Below, piece after piece: positions 4,678 to 48,590 of a stretch of 64,000 nucleotides of DNA (positions within the stretch are counted from its first letter, which is position 1; each line of letters starts with the position of its first letter). The translations under genes and the position numbers were made by a program. The stretch comes from Atopobium massiliense (GTDB lineage: Bacteria; Actinomycetota; Coriobacteriia; Coriobacteriales; Atopobiaceae). The notes below the pieces were generated by a model. That model was not told where the DNA came from and made no database searches. It saw only the letters and a program-made list of their open reading frames with translations. The stretch is from contig OPYK01000005.1 of the NCBI GenBank assembly GCA_900343135.1, positions 1 through 64,000 on the forward strand, read 5' to 3'.

Positions 4678-4707
4678 TTGAAAAATCCTCCGGGGGGGGG
4701 GTATACT
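4678..4707 (+). promoter_or_regulatory. Promoter with a 10-G tract in the spacer (candidate phase-variable switch)
   Basis: A -35 box TTGAAA (4678-4683) and a -10 box TATACT (4702-4707) are separated by 18 bases, of which the last ten are guanines (4692-4701) that abut the -10 box. Loss of one G would give the optimal 17-base spacer. This matches the known design of phase-variable promoters in Neisseria porA and opc. The surface protein gene starts 85 bases downstream. Box assignment is by eye. Confidence 0.65.
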
Positions 4708-4791
4708 ATCGGTGCCTGTCCTACAAGTTGGTGCGCGCCAACTTTTGCGCTAGGACGGCATATAACCACATATGTACCTGTTGGAGATGCC

Positions 4792-6720
4792 ATGAAATCA
4801 CAGTTTACACGTACCCAGGCGCTCTCGTTAGTTAGTTTGAAGGCTCATTGTAAGCCTCTGCTGAAGTTGCTTATTACCTTTAGTATCATAAGTCTATTGT
4901 TTGCGCAGCTTGGTGCTGCATCACTTTGTTATGCCGCCACGCCTGCAGCTTCGTTGGACGCTGATAAACCTGTTAAGCTTACCAATGAGCAGATGAAGCA
5001 ATACTATTTTATAAATCTAACGCTGCAATACAAAGCTCTTGATACGCGCATTGTTCCAGGTGATAAGACTACATTCATACAACCTGACAGTGATTTTGGT
5101 CTTTTGGATACCTCATGGCAAAATGGTGCGAACTCTGATCCTGCATGTAGAAAGCAACATAATGATGTACTTGCAAAGTATCGTGCGGTAAAGTTTCGCT
5201 TTTTTGATAATACAACTAACCAAGAAGCAACCAACATCAAAGAGCTTGATTTTGGTGACCCTGTAAATATCAGCAGGATCTTTTTCGGCTTTAATCCCGA
5301 TCATGAATATAAGATTTCCATTGTTGGTGAAACGGTACCATCTCCTGTTGCGCTAGGTTTTAGCTTGCGACATGCCGATCATACGAGCCCTGTTGCCACA
5401 ACGCTTACCTTTCAAATAAATAAAAAATATTCCTACAACAGTGGTGTTCCAGTGGAAAAAGGCGATAATTGGAATATTCCTTATCAGTTTATAGATCTTA
5501 AAGACCATTTTGTGAAAACAACTCTTTTTATGCTGCCCATGGAGTTTATATTTGCTAATTCTGCAGATGACGCGAAAGATGCACTAACAATTGAAAAAGA
5601 CCCGATAACTGCAGATAAGTATTCGTTTGTGTATCACAACGAGAAGATTTTTAAGCGCGTGCGTATCAAAGATAATAAGCTGGATATTCCAACAGAGGTG
5701 CCCAAGCGTGCTGGTTATAAGTTTTTAGGCTGGGGCTATAATCTACTGTTTCCTAAAAAAGCAGATGGAACGCCAGACGATGATCAAAATGCCTATACTA
5801 TACACAATCTATTGGAATGTACGCGTCAAAGTAATTTAACACTTGATCAGAAAAATAAGTGTTACAGCGATTATACCAACTGGGCTGCAGAGACACTTCG
5901 CTTTGATGCAAGACACATGCGCTCAGCGTATCAGTGGTCTATTATTCGAGATGGTGTGATTAACAAGTATGGCATGCAAAAAGACTTTTTACATGCCGAG
6001 TCGCCGGTATTTATTGTGTTTGCTGTTTGGAAAAAGCTTCCTTCATATACAGTAACGTTTGATCCTAACGGTGGCGTGCTTACTGGTGCTGCTCACGTGC
6101 AGGTAAACGAAGGGGATTTAGTGCCAAAACCAATTGATCCCACCAAGCGAAATTGCACGTTTTTGGGTTGGTTTGTAAAAGACAAACAATGGGATTTTAA
6201 TTCTCAGAAAGTTATGTCTGCGGTTACGCTTGTTGCAATGTGGAAGGAAAATCCTAAGAAAGAGGATGAAGACCCACGGTTTGGAACGCTGTACCGCCTG
6301 TACAACCCGTACACCCACGAGCATTTCTTTACTGCAGAAACGGTAGAGAATGACAACTTGGTGCGTCTTGGCTGGAAGAGTGAAGGCGGTGTAGGCTACA
6401 TTTACAAACATGCAGAAAAAGGTGGTGTGTACCGCTTGTACAATCCAACCACAGGTGAGCACCACTACACAACCAAAGAAAACGAAGTTGCAAACTGCGT
6501 TAAGGCAGGATGGAAAAACGAAGGTGTAAAGTGGTTTAGCGCTCAAAATAAAGAGGTAACACTGAACAAGCTTTACAGCATGTACAACCCCTACGAAAAG
6601 AAGTTTTATCATCACTACACAGCCGATGCCGATGAGATTGCCAAGATGGTGAAAGCAGGCTGGCGTAAAGAAGAAGTAAAGTGGTGCACGTTGCCAGTTT
6701 CATACATCATTAAAAAATAA
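4792..6720 (+). CDS. Secreted surface protein with InlB-like repeat and C-terminal DUF5648-like repeats
   Basis: Predicted secreted protein of 642 residues. Residues 1-48 form a signal peptide. A central region shares motifs with the neighbouring surface protein at 7780-9600 (DSDFG; the VPSP/IPSP element; GYKFLGW against GYTFVGW). An InlB B-repeat or Flg_new-like unit begins near residue 418 (VTFDPNGG and FLGWF). Residues 498-642 hold three DUF5648-like units built on YRLYNP...GEHHYTT...AGW, nearly identical to the end of the giant protein at 27853-33369. No LPXTG motif or C-terminal membrane anchor is seen, so the DUF5648 module may bind the wall; that is inference. ATG 4792 is chosen for its GGAG and the signal peptide it opens. 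Confidence 0.8.
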   Translation: MKSQFTRTQALSLVSLKAHCKPLLKLLITFSIISLLFAQLGAASLCYAATPAASLDADKPVKLTNEQMKQYYFINLTLQYKALDTRIVPGDKTTFIQPDSDFGLLDTSWQNGANSDPACRKQHNDVLAKYRAVKFRFFDNTTNQEATNIKELDFGDPVNISRIFFGFNPDHEYKISIVGETVPSPVALGFSLRHADHTSPVATTLTFQINKKYSYNSGVPVEKGDNWNIPYQFIDLKDHFVKTTLFMLPMEFIFANSADDAKDALTIEKDPITADKYSFVYHNEKIFKRVRIKDNKLDIPTEVPKRAGYKFLGWGYNLLFPKKADGTPDDDQNAYTIHNLLECTRQSNLTLDQKNKCYSDYTNWAAETLRFDARHMRSAYQWSIIRDGVINKYGMQKDFLHAESPVFIVFAVWKKLPSYTVTFDPNGGVLTGAAHVQVNEGDLVPKPIDPTKRNCTFLGWFVKDKQWDFNSQKVMSAVTLVAMWKENPKKEDEDPRFGTLYRLYNPYTHEHFFTAETVENDNLVRLGWKSEGGVGYIYKHAEKGGVYRLYNPTTGEHHYTTKENEVANCVKAGWKNEGVKWFSAQNKEVTLNKLYSMYNPYEKKFYHHYTADADEIAKMVKAGWRKEEVKWCTLPVSYIIKK

Positions 6721-7658: not shown

Positions 7659-7703
7659 TTGCCGCTACAAATAAATATGGAGATAATATGGAGCGGGGGG
7701 GGG
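7659..7703 (+). promoter_or_regulatory. Promoter followed by a 9-G tract at the predicted transcription start
   Basis: TTGCCG (7659-7664), a 17-base spacer and GATAAT (7682-7687) form a plausible promoter. The nine guanines at 7695-7703 then fall at about +1 to +9, so their length could alter start-site choice or allow reiterative initiation. Other box choices are possible; no good -10 lies just after the tract. Confidence 0.45.
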
Positions 7704-7779: not shown

Positions 7780-9600
7780 ATGTCTACACCGTACATAAAC
7801 AACGCAAATGACCTGCAGGTTTTAGGTCTCCGTACGCGAAAGCAACCGTTGGCATCTCTTGGCCGTGCTGTTTTGCTTACGGGTTTAAGTTCAATACTCA
7901 TGGGCACATCGTTTGCACTCAGCACTCATGTGGCATGGGCGGGTGAAGCTACGCCCAAGGTTGAAAAAACAGCAGTGCAATCCGGCGTCCAGGTAACTCC
8001 TAATGCTCCGTCTGTAGCCGGTACGTCATCTGAGAAACACGCTGCAAAACATGCCGCGTTACCAACCGCGCCGAAGGGGACATCAGCTTCAGCGTCTAAC
8101 ACACCAACCGTTCCAAAACATGCTGCAGTACCAGGTGCTACGTCTGATACAGTTGCTGATCATCCTGCCAACACGCCAGCAAGCGAGCATGTTAATGCTG
8201 CCTCCCATACGAGAGCTAAACGCGCGGTTAACGATCCGCAGCCTGCAGCAGAACAAACACCTGCTACACCAGAACCTGCCAAGCCGCAAGAGCAGCAAGA
8301 AAAAACTGAGCTTCGAGTTAGTCTTTGCTGGGAAACCATGAACGGCGATAACAACAACGCCCTCGTTAAAGGTGATAGCGATTTTGGCCAGTTGAATTTT
8401 GTGAACTGGGACTTTGGCTCTACGCTTGATTCAAGCAGGCAAGACGTAAAGGATGCGTTTAAGAACATCGAATTTCAGATAAAAGATACTACTACTAATG
8501 AGATAACAAAAACAAAAGGCGTTTATCCTGATACTGCCACGTCTGCAACAAAAAGTCTTGGCAGCTACGATACCAAACACACCTACGAAGTATCAGTGGT
8601 AAACAACACAATTCCAAGCCCATATTATGTAACGTATAACAATGTTGCTACGAATGAAGACGAGGCGTTCACTCCTGATGTTGCTCACTTTACCTGGGCG
8701 CCATCAAAAGGATCTAATAAAACGTATCAAAACAAGCACTTTCGTTTAAATGCACTGGAAATTGTTTATGCCAAGGATGAGTCGGTAGCAGCCAAGTGTT
8801 TTTCATATGAGCAGCCAAAAAAAGATAATGGTGAGTATCGATCTGATGGAAATTGGAAATTTACTTACACGGACAACAATATTTTTGCGCGCTTACGTGT
8901 AAAAGATAATGCGATTCAGTTCTCAACGGATAACAGCGGAAATCCAATCCACCCTAAAAAAGAAGGGTATACGTTTGTTGGCTGGCAGTTTTATGTTGCA
9001 AAAAAGGCAAATAATAGGCCTTATACGTCTTATGACCGCATGAGCGATGATAATGGGAGCATTCTTAAAAATACAATCGTTATGTATTCGCCATTTAACG
9101 CTCAGACCACCACATACCCCTATTTATTTGCTGTGCTTCGGGACAACAAAGGTGTAAATACGTTTGGTAGCAAGCTTGGCACGCAGTATTGCTCCACAAA
9201 TCACACGTTTGTTGTATTTCCTGAGTGGAAAGAAGGAGCTGAGCCCGAGCCTGCACCTAGTCCTACGCCTACACCAAAACCAGAGCCAACGCCTACGCCT
9301 GAAAAACCAAAACCTACGCCAAAACCAACACCGGAGCCCAAGCCGGAACCTGAGCCGGTGGAGGAGCCGCAGGTACCCGTGCTGCCAGCGCCAACACCTG
9401 CACCAAAGCCAACCCCACAGCCTGCACCAGCGCCCACACCAGTGCAGCCTGCCTCTACGCCTGCTGCTCCACGCAGGCACGCGCGTGCACTTCCGAAAAC
9501 CGGCGACTCGCTTGGATGTGCTACCGTCGGGGAGCTCGGTGCAATACTCGGAGTAGCTGCAGGTTTGCTTGCAGAAGCACTTCGTCGCAAGCGGTACTAG
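7780..9600 (+). CDS. LPKTG-anchored surface protein
   Basis: Cell-wall protein of 606 residues. An N-terminal signal peptide probably ends near the AWA at residues 52-54. It is followed by an Ala/Pro/Thr-rich stretch, then a globular region sharing short motifs with the protein at 4792-6720 (DSDFG, RVKDN, GYTFVGW). A Pro/Glu/Lys/Thr-rich wall-spanning stalk occupies about residues 487-563. The C-terminus has the sortase signal LPKTG at 571-575, a hydrophobic segment and RRKRY. Sortase should link it to peptidoglycan; no sortase gene is in the window. GGAGGAAT sits directly before ATG 7780. A nine-G run lies in the upstream region. Ligand unknown. Confidence 0.88.
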   Translation: MSTPYINNANDLQVLGLRTRKQPLASLGRAVLLTGLSSILMGTSFALSTHVAWAGEATPKVEKTAVQSGVQVTPNAPSVAGTSSEKHAAKHAALPTAPKGTSASASNTPTVPKHAAVPGATSDTVADHPANTPASEHVNAASHTRAKRAVNDPQPAAEQTPATPEPAKPQEQQEKTELRVSLCWETMNGDNNNALVKGDSDFGQLNFVNWDFGSTLDSSRQDVKDAFKNIEFQIKDTTTNEITKTKGVYPDTATSATKSLGSYDTKHTYEVSVVNNTIPSPYYVTYNNVATNEDEAFTPDVAHFTWAPSKGSNKTYQNKHFRLNALEIVYAKDESVAAKCFSYEQPKKDNGEYRSDGNWKFTYTDNNIFARLRVKDNAIQFSTDNSGNPIHPKKEGYTFVGWQFYVAKKANNRPYTSYDRMSDDNGSILKNTIVMYSPFNAQTTTYPYLFAVLRDNKGVNTFGSKLGTQYCSTNHTFVVFPEWKEGAEPEPAPSPTPTPKPEPTPTPEKPKPTPKPTPEPKPEPEPVEEPQVPVLPAPTPAPKPTPQPAPAPTPVQPASTPAAPRRHARALPKTGDSLGCATVGELGAILGVAAGLLAEALRRKRY

Positions 9601-27852: not shown

Positions 27853-30800
27853 ATGTCGTTGCAACAACATGAGCAAACCATTCGCGGCGCGCGCACGATG
27901 CCCGTCCGCCTACGTCGTTTTTCGCTACCAGTGCTGCCAGTATGTGCTGCATCAGCTGCAGTGCTTGCTGGAACAATGTTGCTGGGGGGGGGTCTTGCCT
28001 CTAAGGCGTTTGCTGACGGCTATGTAAACGGCACCAACACCTATTATGGCTACAAAGCCGATGCTGGGTATAGTGAAGATCGCCTGCGTATTGAGGTGCA
28101 CTATTACAACACGCTTGATGCGGCATTAAAGGCTGATGAAAGCCAGGAAAATCCGCTGGGTAAGTTTATACGCGTTCGCTATATTGCAAACGATCCGCAC
28201 GATGCAGGCAATACTCCCGACTACTGGCATCTGCGTCCATTGTGGTGGTTTGGCGTGCCCGAGGGCGTAACCAATGTTAAGCACATTACGTTGCAGCGCA
28301 ATGGGGCAGGTACATGCGATCCAAACGCCGTGCATAAGCGTGGTGAAAAGAATAAAACGTGCGCGTCGCGTGAAGGCTTTGTGATTGAGTCGGAGCATAC
28401 GTATGCAGATCCGAAGGATTGGCAGGGTATTTCGCGCTGGTACAAAGAGGGTAAGGACGAGCTCAATAAAACGCTCAACGATTACGTGCTTAAAAAGTAC
28501 GATAACAGCGGTAATACTGAAAACCAATGGAACAATTACAAAATTGATGATAATGCTGAAACCGATGGCCTTTCGGCAATTTTTACCGACTGGGAATCGG
28601 CTGGTACGCGCTATTACGATTTTAGTTATGTTGCGGAAATTACCGATAGCGCTTACAAGCAGCGTGACAAAAAGCCCCTGCGTTTTGCTGCAGGTATTCG
28701 ACGCACGGTTGGCAACTGGCGCTATGCTGCTGGTTTAACACAAGTGTTGCCTGCCATATCCGAGCATGTTTCCGTGGCGTATCCTGCGGTAACGCCGGTT
28801 GTAAACACGCGCGCGGTTTCTGACGACGAAAAAAAGGCAATTATTGCTGCTATTAAAGAAGCTAACAAGAATAACGAGAACTTTAACAAATTCCTTAAAG
28901 AGGGCGGCGACGGCATTACCATTGGCCAAGAAGGAACTGCAACGGTAACGTTTAGCGACAATACGACGGTTGTGCTGCCTGGTGCATTGCTTGTGGAGCA
29001 AAAGCTTAAAATGTCCGAGCAGTATAAGCCCACTTTGCCCAAGAAAACGCCTGTTATAAATTTGTATCAGCTCACTCCCGACGAAAAAACAAAGGTACGT
29101 CAGGCGATTATTGATGCGAATGGGGGAGGCAATCCGAACGACTTTTTGAAGAACCTCAAGAAGGATTCTAGTAATCAGTATGACCTTACCGTTGAGGAAA
29201 ATGGCGATGTAGAGGCAACCTACACGGATGGCTCTTCCTACACGCTTTCCGCATCTGACGTGGTGTTCCAGGGCGCAACTATTGCCGAGTGGGCGCCGTA
29301 CACGGTGCCTTCGCCCATTGAGGTTGATAATGTAAAGCAGCTAACTGCGCAAGATTTGACGAATATTAAAAAAGCATTTGATGATGCGAACAAAAATTTG
29401 CCGGTATATAAAGATGCACAAACAGCAGATACTGATAACTACATAAAAGTTAATGTATCGAGCGGCGACGTAACCATTAAATGGAAAGACGGCTCTACTA
29501 CCACTATCCAGGCCTGGCAGTTCCTTAAAGAACGTCCACATACTTCTGAGTCAGTACCGAGCCCCCTTCCTGAGAGCAAAAAACACTTTAAGGTGACGCC
29601 CGCGGCGCAGCCTACAACGGTAACGTTTGATCCGTTTAGTCTTAAAGCGGAGGATCTTACTGCTGCAGGTCCAACCCAAGCGGCATTGGACAACCTCAAA
29701 GCAACGCTCGCGGGCTATGTAAAGGACGCAGATACACAACAGAAAGTTTCCGAGTTAACTGTTTTGACTATTGAGTATGGCGTTGATGCAAATGGTGCAG
29801 GAACGGTAACCTTTAAGGCACCCGGTTACGAAGATGCAACCTATCCAATGGGCGTATTCTTTAAGCAAGATGTAAACAAACAAACGCCAAAGGAAACAGA
29901 GCACAATCCACAAGGTAAAACGCAGTACAAATACAAGGTTAAGCCAATTCAATACGATGGAGATAATCCAACACCACAAAATCAAATAGAAGCGCTTAAG
30001 CAATTTGTTAAATCTAATTATGGAACCGATGTTTCGAATGATAACGGCGCAAGAACTGGTACATACGTGCTAAAAAAGACGGATGTTCCTGTGAGTGGTA
30101 CGGAAGGTATTCAGTATTATGATAAGGATGCAGCTGAACCTGCGGGTGTAACAACGATTAGTATTGAAACAGACGGCAGCATTAAGGTTCAAGGGTTTGA
30201 AAAGGGCGATAACAACTCAAAGGCGCTCTTTACTGTTCCTGCAAGTGAGCTGTACGTGAAGAAGACTACCACTCCAGTTGACCATACGGTTTCTGACTTG
30301 AAGGCGCTAGCAAAGCAAATCCGTGATCAACAGAAAAATAATGGTGTAACTGACGACGACTTTAAGCGGGCTGGAATTGATAGCACCGACGACAATACTA
30401 TCAATAGCATGAAGGACGAGGGTAAGCTGCGCGAGCTTATAAAGAAGCTTAGCGAGGCCAAGCACCTTGAGCGTAAATGGATAACACCTAACCCCGTTGA
30501 GGTTGAGAACACTGACGCGCTTACGGAAGACGATTTTAAGAAAGCGGTAGAAGCCTTTATTAAGGCTAATTATGATGGTACTGGTGAAATAACTGGCTCT
30601 AATGGAGTTTATACCATTCCAGGTACCCTTAAGCCAAAAGCGAGTACCGTGCTGATGGAGCTTAAGTCGGACACGAACCCAGACGGCATTGCGAGCGTAA
30701 AATACACTAACAGCAACTTCAATAAGCTTGTATTTTGCAAGTCTACGGGTGATAAGTTATTTACTGTTGATGTAACGTATACGAAGAAAGCTGTATCACC

Positions 30801-33369
30801 TGCTGTAAGCCCTGAAGAGCTGCAGAAGATGAAGGATGCAGCAAAAGCTACCATCGACCGTAACCCCAACCTTACAAAAGAGCAGAAAACACAGCTTAAG
30901 GGTGAGATTGATAACGCACAAACTCCTGATGCTATTAAAGACATCTTGAAAAAGGCAGAAAATCAAGCAAATACAAACAAGACTTCTACCGATCCTAAGG
31001 TACAAGGGGAAATTACAAACAACACGAGCGGCACCGATGCGCAAGCGGCTGCAAACGACAAGAAGGAACAGGAAGATAAACAGAAGCAAAGCGACAAACA
31101 AAATCAGCAGCTACAACAAGATAAAAAGGATGCCAGCGATACAATTGATGGTCTTGGTAACCTTACAAAAGATGAAAAAGACAAGCTGAAACAGGAGATT
31201 AATGGCGCAGATACGCCAGCTGCTGTGCAGCAGATCCTAGAAAAAGCGAAAGCCATTAATAACGCTAAGGACGCTTTGCAAAATGATGTAAACAAAGGCG
31301 CGCTGCCCTTCCTCGACCATGGCACTGGTAAAGACGAAGATAAGGCACTAAGCGACCTACTTGGCGGTACATCCCAAAAAGATGCAACACTTACCGCGCT
31401 TGAGCAGGCACTAAAGGCTGATAACGCAACAGCAGATAGCATTACTAACGCACTTAAGGCTGCACAGCGTCAAAACGGCATTAACGAAGCAACTGCAAAA
31501 GCGAAAGCTACCGCCACGCTTGAAGCGAAAGAAAAAGCGCTTAAGGATGCCTATGACAAGCTTACACCTGAACAACAGGCAAATGCTAAGCAGCAATATG
31601 AAGCAGCTACTACCGCCATTTCAACTGCTAAAGAGAACGTAAAGAAGGCAACCAAACCCTCTGAGATTAATACCGCCCTTGCTGGTGTGAAAGACGAAAC
31701 TATCAAATCAGCTCAAAAGGCTATTGCCGATGCGAAGGGCAAACGTGATACATCGCAGAATACAAACGACAACACCGAGGCACTTACTAAAGAAAAGAAC
31801 GAACAAAAGCAGCGCATCGATAATAGCAACCTTTCGCCCGAAGACAAGCAAAAGGTAAAAGATGATATCGACAACAATTCCCACAGGCTAGGCGACCCAA
31901 CGGGCATTGCCAACCGCGCGCTTAAAGCGCAGAAGATTGCCGACGCGCTGAAGAAGATTGACGAGCTTACGCACTTAAATAATGCGCAGAAGAAGGCGTT
32001 TAAGGATATTATTAATACCACCGACGCCGAAAATCACAAGGATGCTAACGGCAACGATACAGGCGTGGACGACATTGACGACGCGCTTGCGAATGCAACG
32101 AACACCGATAACGCGATGGCGCGTCTTGAGGCGCTGAAAGAGCAAGCTGACAAGTTTGCAAAGGGCGACAAGTATAAGGGCGCATCTCAGGATAAGAAAG
32201 ACGCTTTTAATGCAGCAGCAAGTGCTGCGGCTGAAGTGCTCAATAAAGAAAAGGACGACAACAGCAAGGGTGCAGCCGAAGTAAACACGCTGTATAACGA
32301 TTTGCTTAAGGCAATGCAGGCGATTGACCCCAGCATTAAGGGTGCGCTTGCGCTTCGCACTGACGCGCTGCACAGCGAAGTTGCCGCTGACAAGGCCTTA
32401 AAGCCCGATGATACAACAGATCCTAAGACGCCGGGAAGCTCGGTGTATACAACTGCTTCGCCCGATAAGAAAACAGCGTTTGATAATGCACTTAAAGACG
32501 CTGAAAAGGCACTTGAAGATGCGAAAACTGCAGATGTATCTACAGCCGATGCCGCCGCAGCGGCGCAGAAAAAGGTCGACGATGCGCTTGACAAGCTGAT
32601 AAAGGCGCGCATCGCGCTCGACGGTGTGGATACAAAGCCGCTGGTAGACGAGGTTGCTGTTGCGGATGCAACTAAGGATACGCCAGAGTACAAGTATGCT
32701 GACAAGGAAAAGCAAGCCGCATACGACAAGGCAATCGACGATGCACAGAAGCTGCTGGATACACTGGCGGGTGCGGGCGCAGGCGCTCAGCCTGGTGGAC
32801 AACCTGGTGTTCAGCCTGGACAGGGCGCAGGTCAGCTTGCGACAAAGGAGCAAAGGCAAGACGCCATCAATAAGGCGCTTAAGGCCATAGCAGATGCGAA
32901 AGCCGCCCTCGACGGCAAAGCACCTGCAGGTTCAGAGGACTTCTACGCGCTGCACGCGATGTATCGTTTGTACAATCCTTACACACATGAGCACCTGTTT
33001 ACTACCGATGCTGCCGAAAAAGATAACCTTGTTTCCCTTGGTTGGAACTTTGAGGGTATAACTGGCAAAGTGTACATGCATGGCGAAAAGGGCGGTGTGT
33101 ACCGCTTGTACAATCCAAACACGGGCGAGCACCACTACACTACCAAAGAAGACGAGGTAGCAGCATGCGTAAAGGCGGGCTGGAGAAACGAAGGTGTGAA
33201 GTTCTTTAGCGTGCTGGACGCCGATAAGCAGACAGTTGGCATGGTAAGCATGTACAACCCCTACGAAAAGAAGTTCTACCATCACTACACGTCTGACGCA
33301 GACGAGATTGCCAAGATGGTGAAAGATGGTTGGCGCAAAGAGGAAATCAAGTGGTACGCCGCTAAGTAA
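27853..33369 (+). CDS. Giant adhesin-like surface protein with an in-frame poly-G tract in its signal peptide
   Basis: Predicted secreted protein of 1838 residues. A long signal peptide (VRLRRFSLPVLP...SKAFA, ending near residue 54) contains a run of nine guanines at 27984-27992 encoding Gly-Gly-Gly; the current length keeps the frame open. An N-terminal domain (to about 315) is followed by Rib-like units that pair a helical segment with a strand motif such as VTFSDNTTVVLP or ATYTDGSSYTL (about 315-980). Next come GA-like three-helix modules (NLTKEQKTQLKGEIDNAQTP and relatives, 980-1490), two FIVAR-like units (1490-1690) and DUF5648-like repeats from about 1696 to the end. GA and FIVAR modules in known adhesins bind albumin or matrix proteins; the ligand here is unknown. 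ATG 27853 follows AGGAG by six bases. No LPXTG is present. Confidence 0.85.
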   Translation: MSLQQHEQTIRGARTMPVRLRRFSLPVLPVCAASAAVLAGTMLLGGGLASKAFADGYVNGTNTYYGYKADAGYSEDRLRIEVHYYNTLDAALKADESQENPLGKFIRVRYIANDPHDAGNTPDYWHLRPLWWFGVPEGVTNVKHITLQRNGAGTCDPNAVHKRGEKNKTCASREGFVIESEHTYADPKDWQGISRWYKEGKDELNKTLNDYVLKKYDNSGNTENQWNNYKIDDNAETDGLSAIFTDWESAGTRYYDFSYVAEITDSAYKQRDKKPLRFAAGIRRTVGNWRYAAGLTQVLPAISEHVSVAYPAVTPVVNTRAVSDDEKKAIIAAIKEANKNNENFNKFLKEGGDGITIGQEGTATVTFSDNTTVVLPGALLVEQKLKMSEQYKPTLPKKTPVINLYQLTPDEKTKVRQAIIDANGGGNPNDFLKNLKKDSSNQYDLTVEENGDVEATYTDGSSYTLSASDVVFQGATIAEWAPYTVPSPIEVDNVKQLTAQDLTNIKKAFDDANKNLPVYKDAQTADTDNYIKVNVSSGDVTIKWKDGSTTTIQAWQFLKERPHTSESVPSPLPESKKHFKVTPAAQPTTVTFDPFSLKAEDLTAAGPTQAALDNLKATLAGYVKDADTQQKVSELTVLTIEYGVDANGAGTVTFKAPGYEDATYPMGVFFKQDVNKQTPKETEHNPQGKTQYKYKVKPIQYDGDNPTPQNQIEALKQFVKSNYGTDVSNDNGARTGTYVLKKTDVPVSGTEGIQYYDKDAAEPAGVTTISIETDGSIKVQGFEKGDNNSKALFTVPASELYVKKTTTPVDHTVSDLKALAKQIRDQQKNNGVTDDDFKRAGIDSTDDNTINSMKDEGKLRELIKKLSEAKHLERKWITPNPVEVENTDALTEDDFKKAVEAFIKANYDGTGEITGSNGVYTIPGTLKPKASTVLMELKSDTNPDGIASVKYTNSNFNKLVFCKSTGDKLFTVDVTYTKKAVSPAVSPEELQKMKDAAKATIDRNPNLTKEQKTQLKGEIDNAQTPDAIKDILKKAENQANTNKTSTDPKVQGEITNNTSGTDAQAAANDKKEQEDKQKQSDKQNQQLQQDKKDASDTIDGLGNLTKDEKDKLKQEINGADTPAAVQQILEKAKAINNAKDALQNDVNKGALPFLDHGTGKDEDKALSDLLGGTSQKDATLTALEQALKADNATADSITNALKAAQRQNGINEATAKAKATATLEAKEKALKDAYDKLTPEQQANAKQQYEAATTAISTAKENVKKATKPSEINTALAGVKDETIKSAQKAIADAKGKRDTSQNTNDNTEALTKEKNEQKQRIDNSNLSPEDKQKVKDDIDNNSHRLGDPTGIANRALKAQKIADALKKIDELTHLNNAQKKAFKDIINTTDAENHKDANGNDTGVDDIDDALANATNTDNAMARLEALKEQADKFAKGDKYKGASQDKKDAFNAAASAAAEVLNKEKDDNSKGAAEVNTLYNDLLKAMQAIDPSIKGALALRTDALHSEVAADKALKPDDTTDPKTPGSSVYTTASPDKKTAFDNALKDAEKALEDAKTADVSTADAAAAAQKKVDDALDKLIKARIALDGVDTKPLVDEVAVADATKDTPEYKYADKEKQAAYDKAIDDAQKLLDTLAGAGAGAQPGGQPGVQPGQGAGQLATKEQRQDAINKALKAIADAKAALDGKAPAGSEDFYALHAMYRLYNPYTHEHLFTTDAAEKDNLVSLGWNFEGITGKVYMHGEKGGVYRLYNPNTGEHHYTTKEDEVAACVKAGWRNEGVKFFSVLDADKQTVGMVSMYNPYEKKFYHHYTSDADEIAKMVKDGWRKEEIKWYAAK
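27984..27992 (+). repeat. Nine-guanine tract in coding sequence
   Basis: G9 homopolymer within the signal-peptide region of the giant surface protein, reading CTG GGG GGG GGT. Gain or loss of one or two G would shift the frame within the first 50 codons and stop production. Confidence 0.85.
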
Positions 33370-48244: not shown

Positions 48245-48252
48245 ATGTCCTC

Positions 48253-48411
48253 GTTTCTTTCTTCCGGACTATAACCGTTGGCTTTGGACTTTCACCAAAT
48301 CAGCCACAGTGTGGCGCGCGGGCTTGTAAACGCGTTTATTACAGTTAGTACAGCTAGTGCAGCTAGTGCGTTTATTTACCGCCAGTGGGGATGTTCGCCC
48401 CGCCCTGAAAC
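48253..48411 (-). ncRNA. FMN riboswitch (RFN element)
   Basis: On the minus strand the conserved blocks appear in order: CAGGGCGGGGCGAA, ACTGGCGGT, AAGCCCGCGCGCC, GATTTGGTGAAAGTCC, GCCAACGGTTATAGTCCGG, closed by GTTTC / GAAAC. The ribU ribosome site (ACGAGG) starts directly after the closing helix, so FMN binding probably blocks translation initiation, though transcriptional control is not excluded. The variable arm contains GCACTAGCT-type direct repeats. Confidence 0.93.
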
Positions 48412-48590
48412 TACGTGTCTTAGTATACCCATTTTTTGTTTGTACGTGCGCGCATCATACACGTTACATGGATTCCAAAACGTTGCATGTAAAAATAATG
48501 GCGTGCCCGCTACCCTGCCGTGCGCAATCTTGGGTATACTAGAACAATCAACGAAGTAATCATACCCATAGTGAGGAGTGTGGTAGAGGC

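Follow-up and report, generated by a model that had tools for sequence, protein, structure and literature searches.

A likely phase-variable promoter with a poly-G spacer and a set of G/C tracts at surface-protein genes in a member of the Coriobacteriia

A slippage-prone tract that alters promoter spacing or reading frame is an already known device, described in Neisseria, in Treponema and in Actinomycetota other than the bacterium considered here. In Neisseria meningitidis porA, a poly-G tract lies in the promoter spacer of a gene for an exported protein and its slippage alters the spacing. Treponema pallidum tp0126 also has poly-G between the −35 and −10 sites, and its expression is best at a total spacer of 17 bases (PMC7864442). 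Among the Actinomycetota, Cutibacterium acnes has a run of C (HPT_37) whose inferred place is between the −10 and −35 sites and which is associated with a 2-fold expression difference (PMC4746626), and in Bifidobacterium breve replication slippage in a G-tract switches surface appendages, the pili (PMC9187656). The vaginal genus Gardnerella has a phasome of G/C tracts of at least eight bases, mostly upstream of genes, many of which encode proteins with Rib, GA, FIVAR, InlB or LPXTG features, and variation between tract lengths of 9 and 10 was demonstrated there by Sanger sequencing (PMC11287997).

The window, i.e. the whole stretch of 64,000 nucleotides that we analysed, comes from the genome assembly of Atopobium massiliense (class Coriobacteriia). 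On its plus strand, a direct read of positions 4678–4707 gives a −35 hexamer TTGAAA (4678–4683), a spacer of 18 bases (4684–4701) composed of AATCCTCC (4684–4691) and ten G (4692–4701), and a −10 hexamer TATACT (4702–4707), exactly as in the preliminary description. The proposed slippage site, the G10 tract, which also stands out in motif and run-length counts, is thus wholly contained in the spacer. The mechanism had been likened to those of Neisseria porA and opc; the likeness to porA stands and can be extended to tp0126, but the poly-C tract of opc covers the −35 site (PMC7864442), whereas here eight bases separate the end of TTGAAA from the tract. The genes concerned differ as well. PorA is a porin, unrelated in gene and organism to the secreted protein of the actinomycete-phylum bacterium described here from sequence only, and tp0126 encodes an OmpW homologue of a spirochaete with no sequence relationship to the window gene. 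The C. acnes run is 5–7 bases long and precedes a respiratory-chain gene, its variation following clades (PMC4746626). The pilus switch of B. breve is an intragenic frameshift and does not act by promoter spacing, in which it resembles the coding tracts discussed below (PMC9187656), and Gardnerella belongs to another class, placement in promoter spacers not being described in the accessible part of that account (PMC11287997). As poly-G/C tracts ahead of surface-protein genes are described in these three genera, the earlier remark that the mechanism is rarely described in this type of organism does not hold for the phylum; for the class, our search of the open-licence literature returned no report on point on phase variation in Coriobacteriia, Atopobium or Olegusella.

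The hexamers by themselves are weak evidence for a promoter. In 3.5 kb, seven sigma-70-like sites were found against 6.4 expected from shuffled sequences, i.e. such a pair alone occurs at chance frequency; the site at 4678–4707 is the top-scoring one of the seven, with 10 of 12 matches. For a good promoter carrying a tract in its spacer, however, comparison with shuffled flanks gave p of about 2 × 10−4 (and the same for the paralogous site on contig C8, the two sites being non-independent). Shuffling of the window predicts 0.36 matches to eight consecutive G, while three tracts (seven overlapping matches) are present.

The paralogous site, at C8:123441 on the minus strand of the same genome, reads TTGAAA-AATGCTGC-G9-T-TATACT, so that the spacer is of 18 bases in both paralogues, made with G10 in the window and with G9 plus T in C8. 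BLAST similarity between the two loci extends from position 4678, which is the first base of TTGAAA, to 4817, just inside the gene, the −10 hexamer thus being supported by the paralogue as well as by the promoter scan. The shared block spans the tract, the −10 site, the leader and the start codon, while the DNA upstream of TTGAAA is unrelated; from the sequence it reads like the footprint of a promoter plus its leader. A search for orthologous promoters in a further 396 genomes from the order gave nothing beyond a 29-base match in one of them, and viral contigs gave none. At the predicted mRNA start, the leader may form a hairpin (4714–4759, plus strand) with a GUCCU/AGGAC stem that is unchanged in the paralogue, its loop being different by 16 nt. 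The folding z-scores of −1.6 and −0.6 are weak, and we do not regard this hairpin as a strong structure; an Rfam search of the leader returned no known RNA element. We also rejected a translational reading of the region, in which an ORF from GTG 4630 runs in frame through the tract, because a ribosome site (GGAG) is first seen upstream of ATG 4792, a start codon that opens a signal-peptide-like sequence, and because the paralogue conserves the promoter and leader instead. An intramolecular G-quadruplex, which needs four runs, was likewise dismissed for this single G run.

The 642-aa product of the gene that follows (4792–6720, plus strand) has a signal-peptide-like N terminus, a core at approximately residues 54–415, an InlB-type Flg_new repeat at 419–482 (E = 1.5 × 10−17) and, at its C terminus, DUF5648 at 500–633 (E = 2.5 × 10−39); the repeat also gives a weak match to structures of internalin B. 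This product, earlier designated a surface protein, looks like an exported one, but no LPXTG anchor is visible in the 642-aa sequence. Such an anchor (LPKTG) is present in the neighbouring 606-aa exported protein (7780–9600, plus strand), a distant paralogue with 24% identity over 381 aa. Its candidate promoter, TTGCCG-17-GATAAT (7659–7687, plus strand), was found by the promoter scan and may be a chance match; a G9 tract (7695–7703, plus strand) lies outside its spacer, at the predicted transcription start, where slippage would alter the 5′ end of the transcript and not the promoter spacing. The third tract of the window, also G9 (27984–27992, plus strand), falls among the codons for the signal peptide in a gene (27853–33369, plus strand) whose 1838-aa surface protein contains Rib, GA, FIVAR and DUF5648 domains, and either G8 or G10 is predicted to truncate this product at 50–57 aa.

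The finding is wider than had been proposed for the single promoter, about a dozen tracts being located on surface-protein genes. Counted over 1.105 Mb of the 1.55-Mb assembly, taken as stretches from the contigs with tracts, the G/C runs number 249, 21, 0, 1, 11 and 1 for lengths of 5, 6, 7, 8, 9 and 10, respectively. The distribution is bimodal with the second peak at 9, and since the counts vanish at 7 and reappear at 8–10, the long runs constitute a separate population, unlike the upper end of a distribution produced at random. Taken together with the block kept in the paralogue, this separate population argues that the arrangement at 4678–4707 is more than chance. In the whole 1.55-Mb assembly there are 13 tracts of at least eight bases, and ten of them have positions between −300 and +350 relative to the starts of genes classed as exported by our own simple hydrophobicity rule, an interval comprising 3.6% of the sequence (p = 1 × 10−12); two of the remaining three are situated just before, or extend into, genes whose starts resemble signal peptides by eye. 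Several long tracts are thus found, beyond chance, at the 5′ ends of surface-protein genes, as in a simple-repeat phasome of the Gardnerella kind. Six of the 15 DUF5648 reading frames in 1.1 Mb carry a tract.

By position, six of the tracts are in 5′ coding sequence, all of them in frame at length 9, and translation predicts for every one of the six that with 8 or 10 bases the product would end early, at no more than 128 aa. Three tracts occupy promoter spacers: the two paralogous sites and C9:5296, which sits in TTGACG-17-TAAGAT (p = 0.015). For the other four of the seven non-coding tracts (C10:7695, C14:83036, C11:24386 and C11:45172), promoter spacing was considered and gave no fit. One large surface-protein gene has two tracts: C11:24386–24394 precedes the ATG by about 260 bases, and C11:24975–24983 lies within the coding sequence. 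One of the genes with a coding tract, encoding a DUF5648 protein (C9:7546–5804, minus strand) and containing nine C, has an in-frame stop at codon 108 that is independent of the tract.

The spacer anatomy, the conserved paralogous block and the non-random set of tracts give good support, at the level of sequence, to the reading of 4678–4707 as a phase-variable promoter, and we consider it likely that it is one of the porA/tp0126 type working within a surface-protein phasome. Each event of replication slippage on G10 would bring TTGAAA and TATACT one base closer together or move them one base further apart. RNA polymerase with the main sigma factor recognizes a −35/−10 pair best at a spacing near 17 bases. 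From this property and the optimum of tp0126 at 17, we infer that, if the polymerase uses these boxes and the tract slips in living cells, G9 (spacer of 17) would give a strong promoter, G10 (18, the assembled state) an intermediate one, and G8 (16) or G11 (19) a weak one. A clonal population would then contain subpopulations with differing amounts of the exported DUF5648 protein, and the G10 promoter would be one switch among about a dozen poly-G/C tracts, located in promoters or in 5′ coding sequence, through which the make-up of secreted and surface proteins varies. With so many slippery runs on its surface-protein genes, the bacterium probably uses errors of copying to change its surface. 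A MutS_I domain was found neither in this genome nor in another four from the class, but it was present in 11 of 14 control genomes; as no MutS was found, slippage errors may escape repair.

The most serious rival of this reading is that the promoter is genuine and its G tract has the form of a contingency tract, but that the tract changes length too slowly for switching within a population and fixes a clade-specific level of expression. Eleven of the 13 tracts are exactly nine bases long, all the coding tracts are in frame, and tract lengths in C. acnes follow clades (PMC4746626), which by analogy suggests slow change. On the other hand, tracts of 9–10 bases differ between Gardnerella colonies (PMC11287997), G-tracts slip in Bifidobacterium (PMC9187656), tract lengths in the genome DNF00809, discussed below, range from 8 to 12, and the negative search for MutS also speaks against stability. 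We therefore regard a stable tract as unlikely, while the in-frame state of all the coding tracts, both here and in DNF00809, may mean that slippage is slow or that expression is selected.

That the tract acts mainly otherwise than by spacing, for example through a DNA-binding factor that reads the G run with its flanks, is suggested by the bias of these flanks and by the several tracts situated outside promoter spacers. Relative to the G5–6 runs of the same genome, C precedes 9 of the 13 tracts (p = 0.014) and T follows 11 of them (p = 0.002). This bias is, however, modest and may just mark where runs tend to begin, and such a factor is unnecessary for coding tracts with frame effects, so that we hold this explanation to be quite improbable. 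Least probable is a chance or assembly artefact, i.e. an accidental G run beside accidental hexamers: hexamer pairs of such quality are indeed common, but an accident of this kind accounts neither for the bimodal run lengths and the conserved paralogous block nor for the bias in target genes.

For the core of the 642-aa protein, the sole close relative found belongs to 'Coriobacteriales bacterium DNF00809', since named Umbribacter vaginalis, a member of the Eggerthellaceae obtained from women with bacterial vaginosis (PMC12494484). Residues 54–480 are 87% identical to the DNF00809 homologue, and the DNA 88.6% over 1125 bases, while identity in the ribosomal-protein operon is 65–72% with DNF00809 and 66–78% with genomes of the same family; the ribosomal genes of the window's host, whose genus is represented by one genome, are thus nearer to its own family. 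In other genomes of the same family, the matches are restricted to the repeat and DUF5648 parts and do not exceed 51%. The high identity of the core beside a divergent ribosomal operon, with no core match in the same family, suggests that the core was exchanged horizontally with Umbribacter vaginalis. At its ends the DNF00809 copy differs, in its promoter region, in its signal peptide and in finishing with LPRTD, which is sortase-like. Upstream of it there is an assembly gap of 100 N with G10 on both sides, so that in either bacterium a G tract precedes the core despite the unrelated upstream DNA. DNF00809 has about 11 tracts of 8 to 12 bases, mostly on exported-protein genes, the coding ones seen there being in frame. 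The preference for C before and T after the run is common to the tracts of both genomes.

The block from the −35 site to the first codons is common to two genes with differing middles, and the core, exchanged between families, sits in Umbribacter vaginalis behind an unrelated G-tract region. These two facts led us to a tentative idea, which we hold to be possible though rather doubtful, that the phase switch can move as a cassette at the 5′ end and that poly-G switches and surface-protein bodies are recombined as separate modules among Coriobacteriia.

The tracts offer about a dozen specific candidate contingency loci in a class for which we found no report of phase variation by simple repeats. 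A close relative of the protein presumed to be switched is present in a bacterium that was isolated from bacterial vaginosis, and for Gardnerella in this condition phase variation has recently been shown. If the tracts vary, clonal populations would contain hidden surface diversity affecting adhesion, immune recognition and the comparison of strains, and draft genomes may misreport genes with tracts as intact or broken.

Some minor observations may be added. An FMN riboswitch (RF00050) is located on the minus strand of the window at 48248–48416. In DNF00809, G9 occurs inside a 281-aa gene (L033, 852–1694, minus strand) with no Pfam match, in which an NPPF motif, typical of adenine methyltransferases, was recognized by eye; the gene is a possible phase-variable methylase. 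A shared site around the tracts, G9 flanked by TCRCTC, was considered and is missing from the genome of the window. Tracts of G9–10, several of them near exported-protein genes, are found in genus g19, often followed by TCRCTC; the reversed control gave no G9-TCRCTC, and the genus has six exact cases, distributed over five of its six genomes.
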